A program made the translations under genes and the position numbers. Source: an uncultured bacterium (GTDB lineage: Bacteria > Bacillota > Clostridia > Lachnospirales > Lachnospiraceae). Taken from it: a DNA stretch of 50,125 nt. The notes below the pieces were generated by a model. That model did not search any database, was not told the origin of the DNA, and saw nothing but the letters and a program-made list of their open reading frames with translations. The stretch spans positions 1 through 50,125 of the forward strand of contig CANCXX010000033.1 of the NCBI GenBank assembly GCA_947381965.1. The letters are read 5' to 3'. Positions 1 to 23,726 of this stretch are shown in pieces. The first letter of the stretch is position 1; each line of letters starts with the position of its first letter.

Positions 1-88
1 AAAGCGCCCAGAGAAGATAATGACTGCATAGCAGGCAGGATCTTCTCTGCCGAGTTAGGCGCTTCACAAGGATATGCGGAACTATAAA
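1..88 (+). repeat. Structured leader repeat, copy A1
   Basis: First of two tandem copies (period 102 bp) ahead of the first gene. The outer stem is AAGCGCC (2-8) with GGCGCTT (58-64). It abuts an inner 10-bp stem CAGAGAAGAT (9-18) with ATCTTCTCTG (40-49), which closes a 21-nt loop. Eleven nt after the outer stem comes GCGGAACT (76-83). The unit is cut by the window edge, so further copies may lie upstream. Related units occur on the minus strand at 20210-20377 and on the plus strand at 22331 and 23687. Function unknown. Confidence 0.85.
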
Positions 89-102
89 CAGCATATACCT
101 GT

Positions 103-198
103 AAAGCGCCCAGAGAAGATAATGACTGCATAGCAGGCAGGATCTTCTCTGCCGAGTGTAGGCGCTTTACAAGGATATGCGGAACTATAAATAGGAGG
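103..198 (+). repeat. Structured leader repeat, copy A2, with ribosome binding site
   Basis: Second tandem copy, nearly identical to A1 with one extra base near 158. The outer stem is AAAGCGCC (103-110) with GGCGCTTT (161-168). The inner stem is 111-120 with 142-151 and closes a 21-nt loop. Ten nt later comes GCGGAACT (179-186), followed by the AGGAGG ribosome binding site at 193-198 of the first gene. The repeat therefore supplies the 5' untranslated region of that gene. Confidence 0.85.
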
Positions 199-205
199 AC
201 AGCGT

Positions 206-922
206 GTGGTTACGGCGTTGATATTTGCAGGCGGAAGCGGAAGAAGAATGAATTCGCGTTCCAAGCCTAAGCAGTTTTTGGAAATGCACGGAAAACCAAT
301 TATTATATATACCCTTGAACACTTTGAATTTCATGAAAGCATTGACAATATTGTGGTGGTATGTCTGAAAGAATGGATGGAAGAGCTTCAGGGATTATTA
401 AAAAGGTATGGAATTGTCAAGGTAAAAAGTATCGTTCCAGGTGGAGAAACGGGACATGACTCCATTTATCAGGGGCTTCTGGCGATGAAGGCTTTTGCGC
501 AGAAGGAAGATATTGTCCTGATTCATGATGGGGTACGGCCATTAATTGGAGAAGAGCTGATTTCCCAGAACATTGATGTAACCCGGAAGCATGGAAGCGC
601 AATCACGGTTGAAGCGGCAAGAGAAAGTGTTGTAAGAAGCCGGGATGGAAAAACCATATCAGAGGTCCCGCCAAGAGTCCAGATGTTTACGGCTAAGGCG
701 CCTCAGACTTTTTTTTATGGAGATATTTTAAGCTTATATGAAAAGGCAGCAGGGGAAAAGATAAAAACCATTGATCCTTCCCATTTGTGCAGTCTGTACC
801 ATGTCTCCATGCACCTGGTCAGAAGCACGGGAAACAATATTAAAATTACGGAGCCTGCAGACTATTACATGTACAGGGCCTTATATGAAGCTATGGAAAG
901 CCAGCAGATATTTGGACTGTAA
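206..922 (+). CDS. IspD/TarI-family cytidylyltransferase (probable ribitol-5-phosphate cytidylyltransferase)
   Basis: A 238-residue nucleotidyltransferase of the IspD/TarI family, which joins CTP to a polyol phosphate to make a CDP-activated precursor. The N-terminal loop FAGGSGRRM with the following PKQFL is the CTP-binding signature. VLIHDGVRP near residue 110 is the second family motif, and NNIKITEPADY near the C-terminus is the substrate/metal segment. The start is GTG with AGGAGG 7 nt upstream. IspD and TarI cannot be separated by motif alone, but its place at the head of a cluster with CDP-glycerol-transferase-like enzymes and TagD favours a surface-polymer role over isoprenoid synthesis. 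No TarJ dehydrogenase is visible beside it. Confidence 0.8.
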   Translation: MVTALIFAGGSGRRMNSRSKPKQFLEMHGKPIIIYTLEHFEFHESIDNIVVVCLKEWMEELQGLLKRYGIVKVKSIVPGGETGHDSIYQGLLAMKAFAQKEDIVLIHDGVRPLIGEELISQNIDVTRKHGSAITVEAARESVVRSRDGKTISEVPPRVQMFTAKAPQTFFYGDILSLYEKAAGEKIKTIDPSHLCSLYHVSMHLVRSTGNNIKITEPADYYMYRALYEAMESQQIFGL

Positions 923-979
923 GATAGGGTTTTGTAACTTCCAATTTACTTTTGGTGCAGTCAGTATAGCAGGGGTATA

Positions 980-1040
980 GGTTTAGAAGTAAACCTCCAA
1001 ACTGCTTATTGGTGGCAGTACCGCAAGCAAAGCTTGCGGT
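980..1040 (+). promoter_or_regulatory. Two hairpins in the leader of the GT-propeller gene
   Basis: The 133-nt gap between the first two genes holds two perfect short inverted repeats. GGTTTA (980-985) pairs with TAAACC (990-995). ACCGCAAGC (1020-1028) pairs with GCTTGCGGT (1032-1040) across a 3-nt loop. The second hairpin ends immediately before the GGGGGA ribosome binding site of the next gene. Neither is followed by a T-run, so they are not obvious terminators. They could affect translation or mRNA processing. Confidence 0.55.
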
Positions 1041-22275: not shown

Positions 22276-22330
22276 GAGAACGGTTACAGAACTTAGACAA
22301 CAAATGCTAAAAGCCAGCATCCAACCGGAA

Positions 22331-22426
22331 GATGCCCAGAGCATTTACGGACGCCGGAAATAGGCGGCCGTAAATGACTCTGAGGGAGCGGCATTGGAAG
22401 GGGAGATGCGGAACTTAAATTAGGAG
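22331..22426 (+). repeat. Structured leader repeat, copy C, before the MACPF gene
   Basis: The outer stem GATGCC (22331-22336) pairs with GGCATT (22390-22395). Directly inside, CAGAG (22337-22341) pairs with CTCTG (22378-22382), and CATTTACGG (22342-22350) pairs with CCGTAAATG (22368-22376), leaving one bulged A. CGCC and GGCG in the loop can also pair. GCGGAACT follows at 22408-22415, and AGGAG comes 14 nt after the start of GCGG as the ribosome binding site of the MACPF gene. Stem sequences differ from the other copies while pairing is kept. Confidence 0.8.
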
Positions 22427-22434
22427 ATTAAAAA

Positions 22435-23682
22435 ATGATGCAGTTGATAACAGTGAAAAATAAAAATGGTAAAAGCGCGGCTGTGCGTCTGGACAGTGGT
22501 ACGAAGCTTTCTGCTGTCCGGGGCGAACTGAAAAGTCGTGGAATTATGTCAGACAGTGATTACTTTTTATTTAATGATTCCCCTCTTTCTGTATCAGATG
22601 AAAATGATACGCTATTGAGTGAGTTGATTGACGGTACCGGAACTATTTATGTGGGTAAAGGGACGGAGCCAGGGATTTCCCCTGACGAGGATATGGAAGA
22701 TTACCGGGATTTAAATGAAAGCCAGAAGGAAGATTTGTTCCGCAAGTGTCAGATCTTCAGAGGTCTTGTTTTTAGTAAGGACAAAGGGATTGCAAAATCC
22801 TTTAAGGATTTATATTCATGGTCTTCTCTTCCTGCTATGCTTACTCCCCGTGTAAATACACAGGAAATTTCTGATTATTCTTTTTCCAAGATTACGCAGG
22901 ATATAAATCTGATTACCAGTAACAAAACAAATCTGGCCCTGGATCTTCCCTATGTCAGCGCGGAGGCAGAGTACAGCCATGAAAAAAGTATACATACAAG
23001 CTCCAGCAAAGTAAAGGAGTACTTACTGGCAAAATATTTGGTTTTAAAGGCCAGTTTTGAGCTGGATGCCTCTGCCCTTACCCCCAACCCGGAGTTTGTT
23101 AAAGCGGTAAATGAAGCGGTGGTTTCGCAGGATTCCGACAAAGACAGAATGTGCAATCTGCTGCATGTACTGGATACCTGGGGAATTTATATTCCTCAGA
23201 GATTTACACTGGGAGGGGCGCTATACTCCACGGAGGTAACGGAAATCAATGACTTTTCCCAGTCAGAATCAGAAAAAACAGAGTTCAGTTCATCAGTAAA
23301 AGCAGAGCTTGCTTCCGGTTCCGGCAGTGCAGGAGGGGGCCAGTCGAAAGAGAAAAAAACGGAAATTGGAACCAGCACAAAATACACAAATATTGTTATA
23401 AATCAGGTAGGCGGAACACCTGGACAGACCAAAGACAAAGAAGGGATTGCCATTTCCCTGAAAAAGGCACGGTATTGGGAAATCGTTGACGTGGAAACGT
23501 TTTATCCAAGCCTGATGCTTTTGAATACTGCAAATGTGCCGGGGACAGACCCGCGTCTGCTTGCAAAGTGCCTGCAGCTTATGAATAACAATTATTACCA
23601 TGGGGCGGTTAAAGAAATTCAGCCCTATGTAAATATGTTAAACTATGCCACTGCCATTGAAAACCTTATTAACCCATTTTAA
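22435..23682 (+). CDS. MACPF-like (membrane attack complex/perforin) pore-forming protein
   Basis: A 415-residue protein. Residues 1-75 look like a ubiquitin-like beta-grasp (LITVKNKNGKSAAVRLDSG, KLSAVRGELKSR, a final TIYVGKG). From about residue 100 the pattern fits a MACPF domain, with the family signature at about 253-265, WGIYIPQRFTLGG, equivalent to (Y/W)-G-x-(H/Y)-x6-GG. It is followed by Ser/Glu-rich amphipathic segments and a Gly-rich turn SGSGSAGGGQS that would suit transmembrane hairpins. There is no signal peptide, so it may act intracellularly or be released by lysis or an unusual secretion route. MACPF proteins form ring-shaped pores. The start is ATG, 8 nt after AGGAG. Confidence 0.75.
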   Translation: MMQLITVKNKNGKSAAVRLDSGTKLSAVRGELKSRGIMSDSDYFLFNDSPLSVSDENDTLLSELIDGTGTIYVGKGTEPGISPDEDMEDYRDLNESQKEDLFRKCQIFRGLVFSKDKGIAKSFKDLYSWSSLPAMLTPRVNTQEISDYSFSKITQDINLITSNKTNLALDLPYVSAEAEYSHEKSIHTSSSKVKEYLLAKYLVLKASFELDASALTPNPEFVKAVNEAVVSQDSDKDRMCNLLHVLDTWGIYIPQRFTLGGALYSTEVTEINDFSQSESEKTEFSSSVKAELASGSGSAGGGQSKEKKTEIGTSTKYTNIVINQVGGTPGQTKDKEGIAISLKKARYWEIVDVETFYPSLMLLNTANVPGTDPRLLAKCLQLMNNNYYHGAVKEIQPYVNMLNYATAIENLINPF

Positions 23683-23686
23683 GCAA

Positions 23687-23726
23687 GGGCCTGGAAAAGG
23701 GCCCGGAGCGGAACTTATAGCAGGAG
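23687..23726 (+). repeat. Reduced structured leader repeat, copy D
   Basis: A short hairpin GGGCC (23687-23691) with GGCCC (23700-23704), without the inner stem of the full copies. It is followed by GCGGAACT (23708-23715) and AGGAG 14 nt after the start of GCGG, the same linker and ribosome-binding arrangement as copies A2 and C. It lies directly after the MACPF stop and before the third cassette gene. Confidence 0.65.

Follow-up and report, generated by a model that had tools for sequence, protein, structure and literature searches.

The repeat units and their genes

The 50,125-nt stretch analysed here (the window) is contig CANCXX010000033.1 (C33) of assembly GCA_947381965.1, a 4.31 Mb genome in 92 contigs (G000) from an uncultured member of the Lachnospiraceae. 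It carries a tandem hairpin repeat placed before the Shine-Dalgarno (SD) sequences of unrelated genes: five units, the first of them clipped where the contig begins, plus a single reduced copy, found from the sequence and with a covariance model (R1, described below) run on the window without filters. Below the five units the best R1 match has 12.9 bits (E 0.24). R1 was built partly from three of the window copies, so its scores for those copies are not independent.

The contig begins inside an array that leads to ispD. Unit 1 (1..86, + strand), whose 5′ part is lost at the contig start, is matched by R1 at 3–63 with 34.5 bits and is further recognised by its sequence identity to unit 2 (87..190, +), which is full, running AACAG, hairpin, CGGAACTATAA, and scores 80.1 bits with a minimum free energy (MFE) of −48.6. 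An SD, AGGAGG (193..198, +), then precedes the GTG start of ispD, a cytidylyltransferase gene (206..922, +; Pfam IspD, 4.2e-37). The second array lies on the other strand, before tyrS (18923..20173, −; Pfam tRNA-synt_1b, 8e-76) and its SD AGGAG (20181..20185, −). Its SD-proximal unit (20187..20290, −) scores 90.6 bits and its distal unit (20291..20394, −) 65.7 bits with an MFE of −48.3; the stems of the distal unit are unlike those of the proximal one, with pairing intact. Farther 5′ is a T-box leader (20524..20830, −; RF00230, 91.3 bits, E 1.1e-20), giving the order T-box, two units, tyrS in the source genome; its score is slightly below the gathering score of 93, so that a gathering-mode Rfam scan misses it. 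A lone unit (22313..22419, +; 74.5 bits) and the SD AGGAG (22422..22426, +) precede a gene for a MACPF-domain protein (22435..23682, +; Pfam MACPF, 2.1e-10), and the stretch 21151–23682 reads as a 374-aa open reading frame (ORF) without Pfam match, then this unit, then the MACPF gene. The reduced copy (23682..23726, +), a short hairpin with GCGGAACT and an SD (fold −14.2 kcal/mol), stands before an unassigned 179-aa ORF at 23736 and has no R1 match at E ≤ 1 in the unfiltered search of the window.

An earlier note on this DNA had named all of these copies, and each is present in the sequence, R1 matching all but the reduced one. Its description of the unit is revised here: full units begin 16–18 nt farther 5′, at AACAG or a variant; an extra outermost stem, P1, had been overlooked; and the GC of GCGG, which had been taken as part of a linker, is the 3′ strand of P1.

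The unit is a tandem repeat of ∼103–107 nt that runs from AACAG through stems P1, P2 and P3 to an inner P4 with a loop of variable length, then through the returning strands to CGG(A/T)ACT and NNAA, with an unpaired stretch of ∼8–9 nt on the 3′ side between P3 and P2. Either the next AACAG follows, or TAGGAG, sometimes in variant form, and then a start codon. The fold is one long bulged hairpin whose flanks, AACA and GGAACUGGAA, are single-stranded. Conservation is greatest at and outside the base of the stem; the pair at the stem end also varies, on both sides at once (ACAGC...GCGG to ACAGT...ACGG). Across the genome, GCGGAACT..AGGAG is found 40 times and its reversed form not once. Arrays in the source genome contain one to three full units, frequently preceded by a partial one; one array in G002 has five. 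Neighbouring units are on average 93% identical (n=15, lowest 62%), as against 67% across loci (n=1054 pairs). One unit (L172:4637-4735) appears to show near-perfect pairing of both arms over their full length, without the usual 3′ bulge, possibly a case of fresh arm copying.

Covariation and the strand of the fold

R1 and its alignment, A1, comprise 96 diverse units: 98 non-redundant units less two judged false by hand (L031:1386 and window:23618). RNAalifold places 22 pairs on A1, 20 of them with compensatory changes. The covariation score is 0.561, compared with 0.238 ± 0.008 for shuffled alignments, and was matched by none of 500 shuffles, as was the case for four of the five covariation measures. 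Paired cells make up 87.7% of the total in A1 and 31–46% in slid controls.

The A1 units had been picked by a filter that required folding at the stem base, so two further checks were made. In the first, P1 pairing was scored without any folding filter, comparing the six bases before GCGG with the six after the upstream CAG(C/T). Full 6/6 pairing was found at 26 of 110 sites, a set that includes three from other taxa or without hairpin (L107, L108, L124) and many others with only reduced hairpins; when arms were swapped between loci, the mean was 1.3 sites and the maximum four in 200 trials. The second check used 33 matches from six other genera, spread over 20 loci, which R1 detected once it had been built. 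No row of this set (A4) is ≥95% identical to an A1 row, and one of the 33 is above 85%; its covariation score is 0.479, against 0.194 when shuffled, a value reached by none of 500 shuffles. Covariation, for which the earlier note had proposed a test, is strong in A1 and again in six other genera, and the note's remark that the stems differ between copies and still pair, G-U pairs included, is borne out.

The strand on which pairing is kept can be read from the kinds of mismatch tolerated. Within the 22 pairs there are 112 G-U and 35 A-C combinations, a ratio of 3.20, where 1000 shuffles give a mean of 1.38 and a maximum of 1.55. The MFE is −46.6 for the sense and −40.1 for the antisense strand, the sense being lower in 90 of 96 units. 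The G-U excess and the better sense folding together make it clear that the transcribed strand is the one on which the fold is kept; selection on single-stranded DNA of the sense strand is the less likely alternative. Compensatory changes on the transcribed strand are what is expected of a structured cis-acting RNA.

Placement, distribution and turnover

Among 39 R1-found sites at arrays beyond those already collected, scored by eye, 27 lead to an SD-like stretch (weak ones such as L184 and L195 are counted here) and a same-strand start codon, seven to the next unit, two run off the contig and three (L199, L211, L212) lead to neither SD nor unit. For 20 sites in the six other genera the figures are 17 (the SD being weak in L360) and three. 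No copy antisense to the gene it precedes was seen, though the three of 39 just mentioned lead to no SD. At L211 and L212, arrays at contig ends, a near-identical TAGTCCAGCTAA(T/G)AAATGTCAATAG stands in place of the SD; this stretch is perhaps the end of an insertion sequence. In 55 of 63 loci, 12 or 13 nt separate CGG from the SD; these loci were found partly with distance-limiting patterns, such that the real spread is wider, and the linkers of L183 and L188 are longer. From what is known of 30S geometry, a hairpin ending 12–13 nt before the SD falls at the footprint's edge, and we take this spacing to place the hairpin just outside the expected ribosome footprint with the SD left open. SD openness is 0.638 with the element and 0.624 with a shuffled element (p 0.39), giving no sign of SD masking. 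Enough sequence lies upstream of 56 arrays to look for a preceding gene; in 51 of these a same-strand ORF of ≥100 aa ends ≤400 nt from where the array is estimated to start, the gap being ≤40 nt in 31 of the 51, which argues for operon membership.

The genes downstream include ispD, tyrS, scpB, guaB, mutS2, thyA, dapB, transketolase, other aminoacyl-tRNA synthetases, sugar enzymes and an ABC transporter. They are often housekeeping genes and, as the earlier note said, unrelated: their Pfam families are spread, with no common pathway, and the commonest family accounts for at most four of 68 downstream proteins of the source genome and at most three of 106 from elsewhere. The first set is 75 ORFs less seven (six judged false, one duplicate); L049/L050, duplicates on another contig, were excluded, and several loci of the source genome that had been fetched by pattern have no element (e.g. 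L028-L030, L038, L063-L066). The second (A3) is 106 of the 122 downstream proteins of ≥60 aa from elsewhere. Few targets are shared between genomes: for two of the 23 distinct G002 genes sampled, a counterpart among the 68 also bears the element, and the same holds for two of 17 distinct G024 genes against those of G002. This sharing is probably above chance, in which case either certain arrays are old or certain sites are preferred.

The source genome has at least 116 copies at E ≤ 0.01, singly or in tandem, by R1 with the best 150 of 2097 first-look candidates scored. Default filters of R1 miss real units, such as the distal tyrS unit (65.7 bits unfiltered), and copy counts are therefore lower bounds. 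Conversely, the assembly lists 7.31% contamination, so that a second strain may raise the count. The same elements occur on separate contigs of the source genome, C14 and C44, and C57 and C67. Assembly breaks are frequent at the repeat: 25 of 184 contig ends lie ≤200 nt from an element or its core pattern. Within the genus, 9 of 37 genomes have copies at E ≤ 0.001, numbering 102, 56 (G024), 55 (G002), 28, 25 (G001), 19, 9, 5 and 1. In a family sample, 8 of 397 genomes are positive, in 8 of 334 genera, source genome included; six of these 8, the source genome among them, reach the ceiling of 10 scored candidates. In a class sample the one positive of 391 is the source genome itself. Both samples were searched with stricter filters. 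The exact string was found in at least 114 stretches of the genome contig collection, titled mostly Lachnospiraceae or unplaced Clostridia and with Acetatifactor muris DSM 23669 among the carriers listed; three of the stretches (L107, L108, L124) are those from other taxa or without hairpin. Many of the carriers are, we presume from the isolate names, from mouse gut. A viral contig scan gave one exact match, on a phage contig without the hairpin, which was judged chance; plasmid and phage collections were not searched. The covariance model that the earlier note proposed found further copies with the paired architecture in other genera; none of the refuting outcomes that the note listed was seen, IS ends not having been searched for. 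The note's failure to recognise a named RNA class agrees with Rfam 15, which has no family for the element: gathering mode gives no match of the element in the window, and E-value mode on seven element loci gives 16 matches (E 0.05–8.4), all far under gathering scores. In the open-access papers that were searched, no description of the element was recognised; subscription journals are mostly outside that coverage.

Turnover is visible between close relatives. Besides the source genome, two of the 24 tyrS loci of the genus, those of the sister genomes G022 and G024, each have a single, decayed copy (21.9 bits, E 0.0027); no unit lies upstream of the remaining 21, by eye in 330 nt and by filtered model search, and a 15.6-bit match in L264 falls within the coding part of tyrS itself. 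Between G022 and G024, syntenic stretches are mostly 93–99% identical, and at such sites the two differ by one unit against two, by a bare GCGGAACTGGAATCAGGAG against a full unit, by loss of the hairpin with ACAGCGAAAGCGGAACT left, and by no element against a full unit; these differences could be gains or losses. At the site with one unit or two, a 16-nt direct repeat, GCGGAACTGGAATCAG, flanks the differing unit, and slippage deletion between the repeats accounts for the difference as well as a target duplication would. Single copies decay while the family retains its fold.

Interpretation and comparison with known systems

Absent from Rfam 15, the element belongs with the dispersed intergenic repeats, as one that is anchored to the SD. 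Dispersed hairpin repeats as such are already known. REP/BIME are dispersed intercistronic palindromes in arrays of units, some of which affect mRNA stability; they occur in both orientations, are not tied to the SD and are linked to RAYT transposases. The present element shares the intercistronic arrays and differs in that no antisense copy was seen and no association with Y1_Tnp was found. The BOX elements of pneumococcus are intergenic and structured, with a three-module design, boxA-boxB-boxC, of which one part is tandemly repeated; here one module repeats and has its 3′ end tied to the SD. Tandem riboswitches are likewise tandem structured leaders, but have a common ligand pathway and a conserved aptamer core, neither of which was found here. 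TAACTGA direct repeats of Beggiatoaceae form sets just upstream of start codons, for which a translational role was proposed, and resemble the present element in the lack of a functional pattern in downstream genes and in patchy distribution; they are, however, seven-base units overlapping the expected ribosome binding site, with SDs mostly lacking, and the available part of that article does not mention a covarying 100-nt hairpin or a fixed SD distance (PMC4679880), both of which are present here. The unit sequence has no TAACTGA heptamers in direct repeat.

Our preferred reading, held with middling confidence, is that this is a dispersed, tandem, RNA-level hairpin repeat of Lachnospiraceae that acts as intercistronic mRNA punctuation and spreads semi-selfishly, the function being read from sequence. 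A unit between two co-directional genes would be transcribed within their mRNA. The hairpin base of the last unit, 12–13 nt before the SD, would stay just outside the initiating ribosome and keep the SD open. The hairpin would act in cis, as an exonuclease block or a processing mark between cistrons, and would set initiation apart from ribosomes arriving from upstream, so that the next gene has an initiation site of its own; such punctuation is the most likely cis effect. Additional units would strengthen it. The family would spread and decay as a semi-selfish repeat, tolerated because its landing spots leave genes unbroken. Of the two options in the earlier note, a cis-regulatory RNA or a repeat family with its own ribosome binding site, the second is supported, as a dispersed tandem repeat family with structure at the RNA level 12–13 nt before the SD, and the first finds no comparable support: there is no shared pathway, the SD is unmasked, and presence, unit number and pairing all vary from one sister genome to the other.

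Several observations weigh against this reading. No copy at E ≤ 0.001 was found in 28 of the 37 genus genomes, so any function is dispensable. In 11 orthologous units of G022 and G024, 23 paired positions have changed, of which 12 are unpaired in one genome, eight still pair through a one-sided change and three through a double change; with 12 of 23 broken, single copies are weakly constrained over short times. Identity of the elements between these genomes (0.82–0.98) is mostly under that of their flanks (0.92–0.99). The fifth covariation measure, the number of pairs with double change, was matched by 36 of 500 shuffles, pairs in A1 are counted on related sequences, and A4 was aligned to R1, so that its counts favour structure. 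The punctuation role, too, is a proposal from sequence.

A selfish hairpin of the REP/MITE type, with the structure serving a transposase as single-stranded DNA and the site 5′ of the SD reflecting target choice, would account for the high copy number, the unrelated genes and patchy distribution, the presence/absence differences between sister genomes, the 16-nt repeat around one unit and the loss of pairing in single copies. It nevertheless seems rather unlikely: the G-U bias is on the sense strand, which folds better; only the stem is inverted, with no terminal inverted repeats beyond it and no clear target duplication; and no copy antisense to its gene was seen (with the same three sites of 39 leading to no SD). 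Nor do Y1 (HUH) transposases track the element, being present in 6 of 8 genomes with ≥5 copies and 15 of 29 others (Fisher p 0.42); at E ≤ 0.001 there is no Y1_Tnp in G002, with its 55 copies, nor in G021, both carriers. Movement by reverse transcriptase, as an RNA-copied retroelement or bacterial SINE, would fit the dispersal and the transcribed-strand structure, but is the least probable of the alternatives, RVT_1 being found in 3 of the 8 genomes with ≥5 copies, in 20 of 29 others and, at E ≤ 0.001, not in G024 with 56.

A classic cis-regulator, whether riboswitch or protein-binding leader, responding to one signal common to all target genes is what leader position, conserved flanks, narrow SD spacing and covariation would suggest. 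We consider it improbable, given downstream genes without shared pathway, the few targets shared between genomes, conservation that peaks at and outside the stem base, and an unmasked SD; the element is best read as not being a pathway-specific riboswitch. Docking of a CsrA-type protein is very unlikely. GGA is frequent in the 3′ flank, and 7 of 8 genomes with ≥5 elements have extra CsrA matches (E<1e-6, own count), as against 6 of 29 others (p 0.0011, uncorrected for phylogeny), but there are exceptions both ways: G001, with 25 copies, has no extra CsrA, and six element-poor genomes do have one, which in the five read is the long paralog also present in the rich genomes. The GGA motifs give no support, being poorly conserved, the first sometimes GGT (GCGGTACT, also in the window) and the second often TAAA or ATAA. 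In G022 the leader of a 60-aa CsrA-like gene (L338) is itself a reduced core of the element, GCGGAACTGAAATGGAGG. The extra CsrA paralogs (L332, L335-L337, L340, L342-L351), commoner in element-rich genomes, are mostly ∼91 aa (MLRLTVSTEEYLMI...); many have an upstream inverted repeat like ATGCAAC...GTTGCAT, as if part of a mobile element.

A dispersed hairpin repeat kept in RNA, in the sense orientation and in tandem, at a narrow distance from the SDs of dozens of unrelated, often essential genes would show translation signals to be open to colonisation. A bolder version, to which we give only a small chance, is a genome parasite at the RNA level: a hairpin that multiplies solely in the slot between stop codon and SD, its fold selected on the mRNA strand, offering a ready-made initiation site as the price of tolerance and needing neither transposase nor reverse transcriptase, for the two kinds tested. 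Presence, unit number and hairpin loss differ at the same genes between sister species, which makes these loci natural experiments on the way structure between cistrons governs mRNA decay and initiation.

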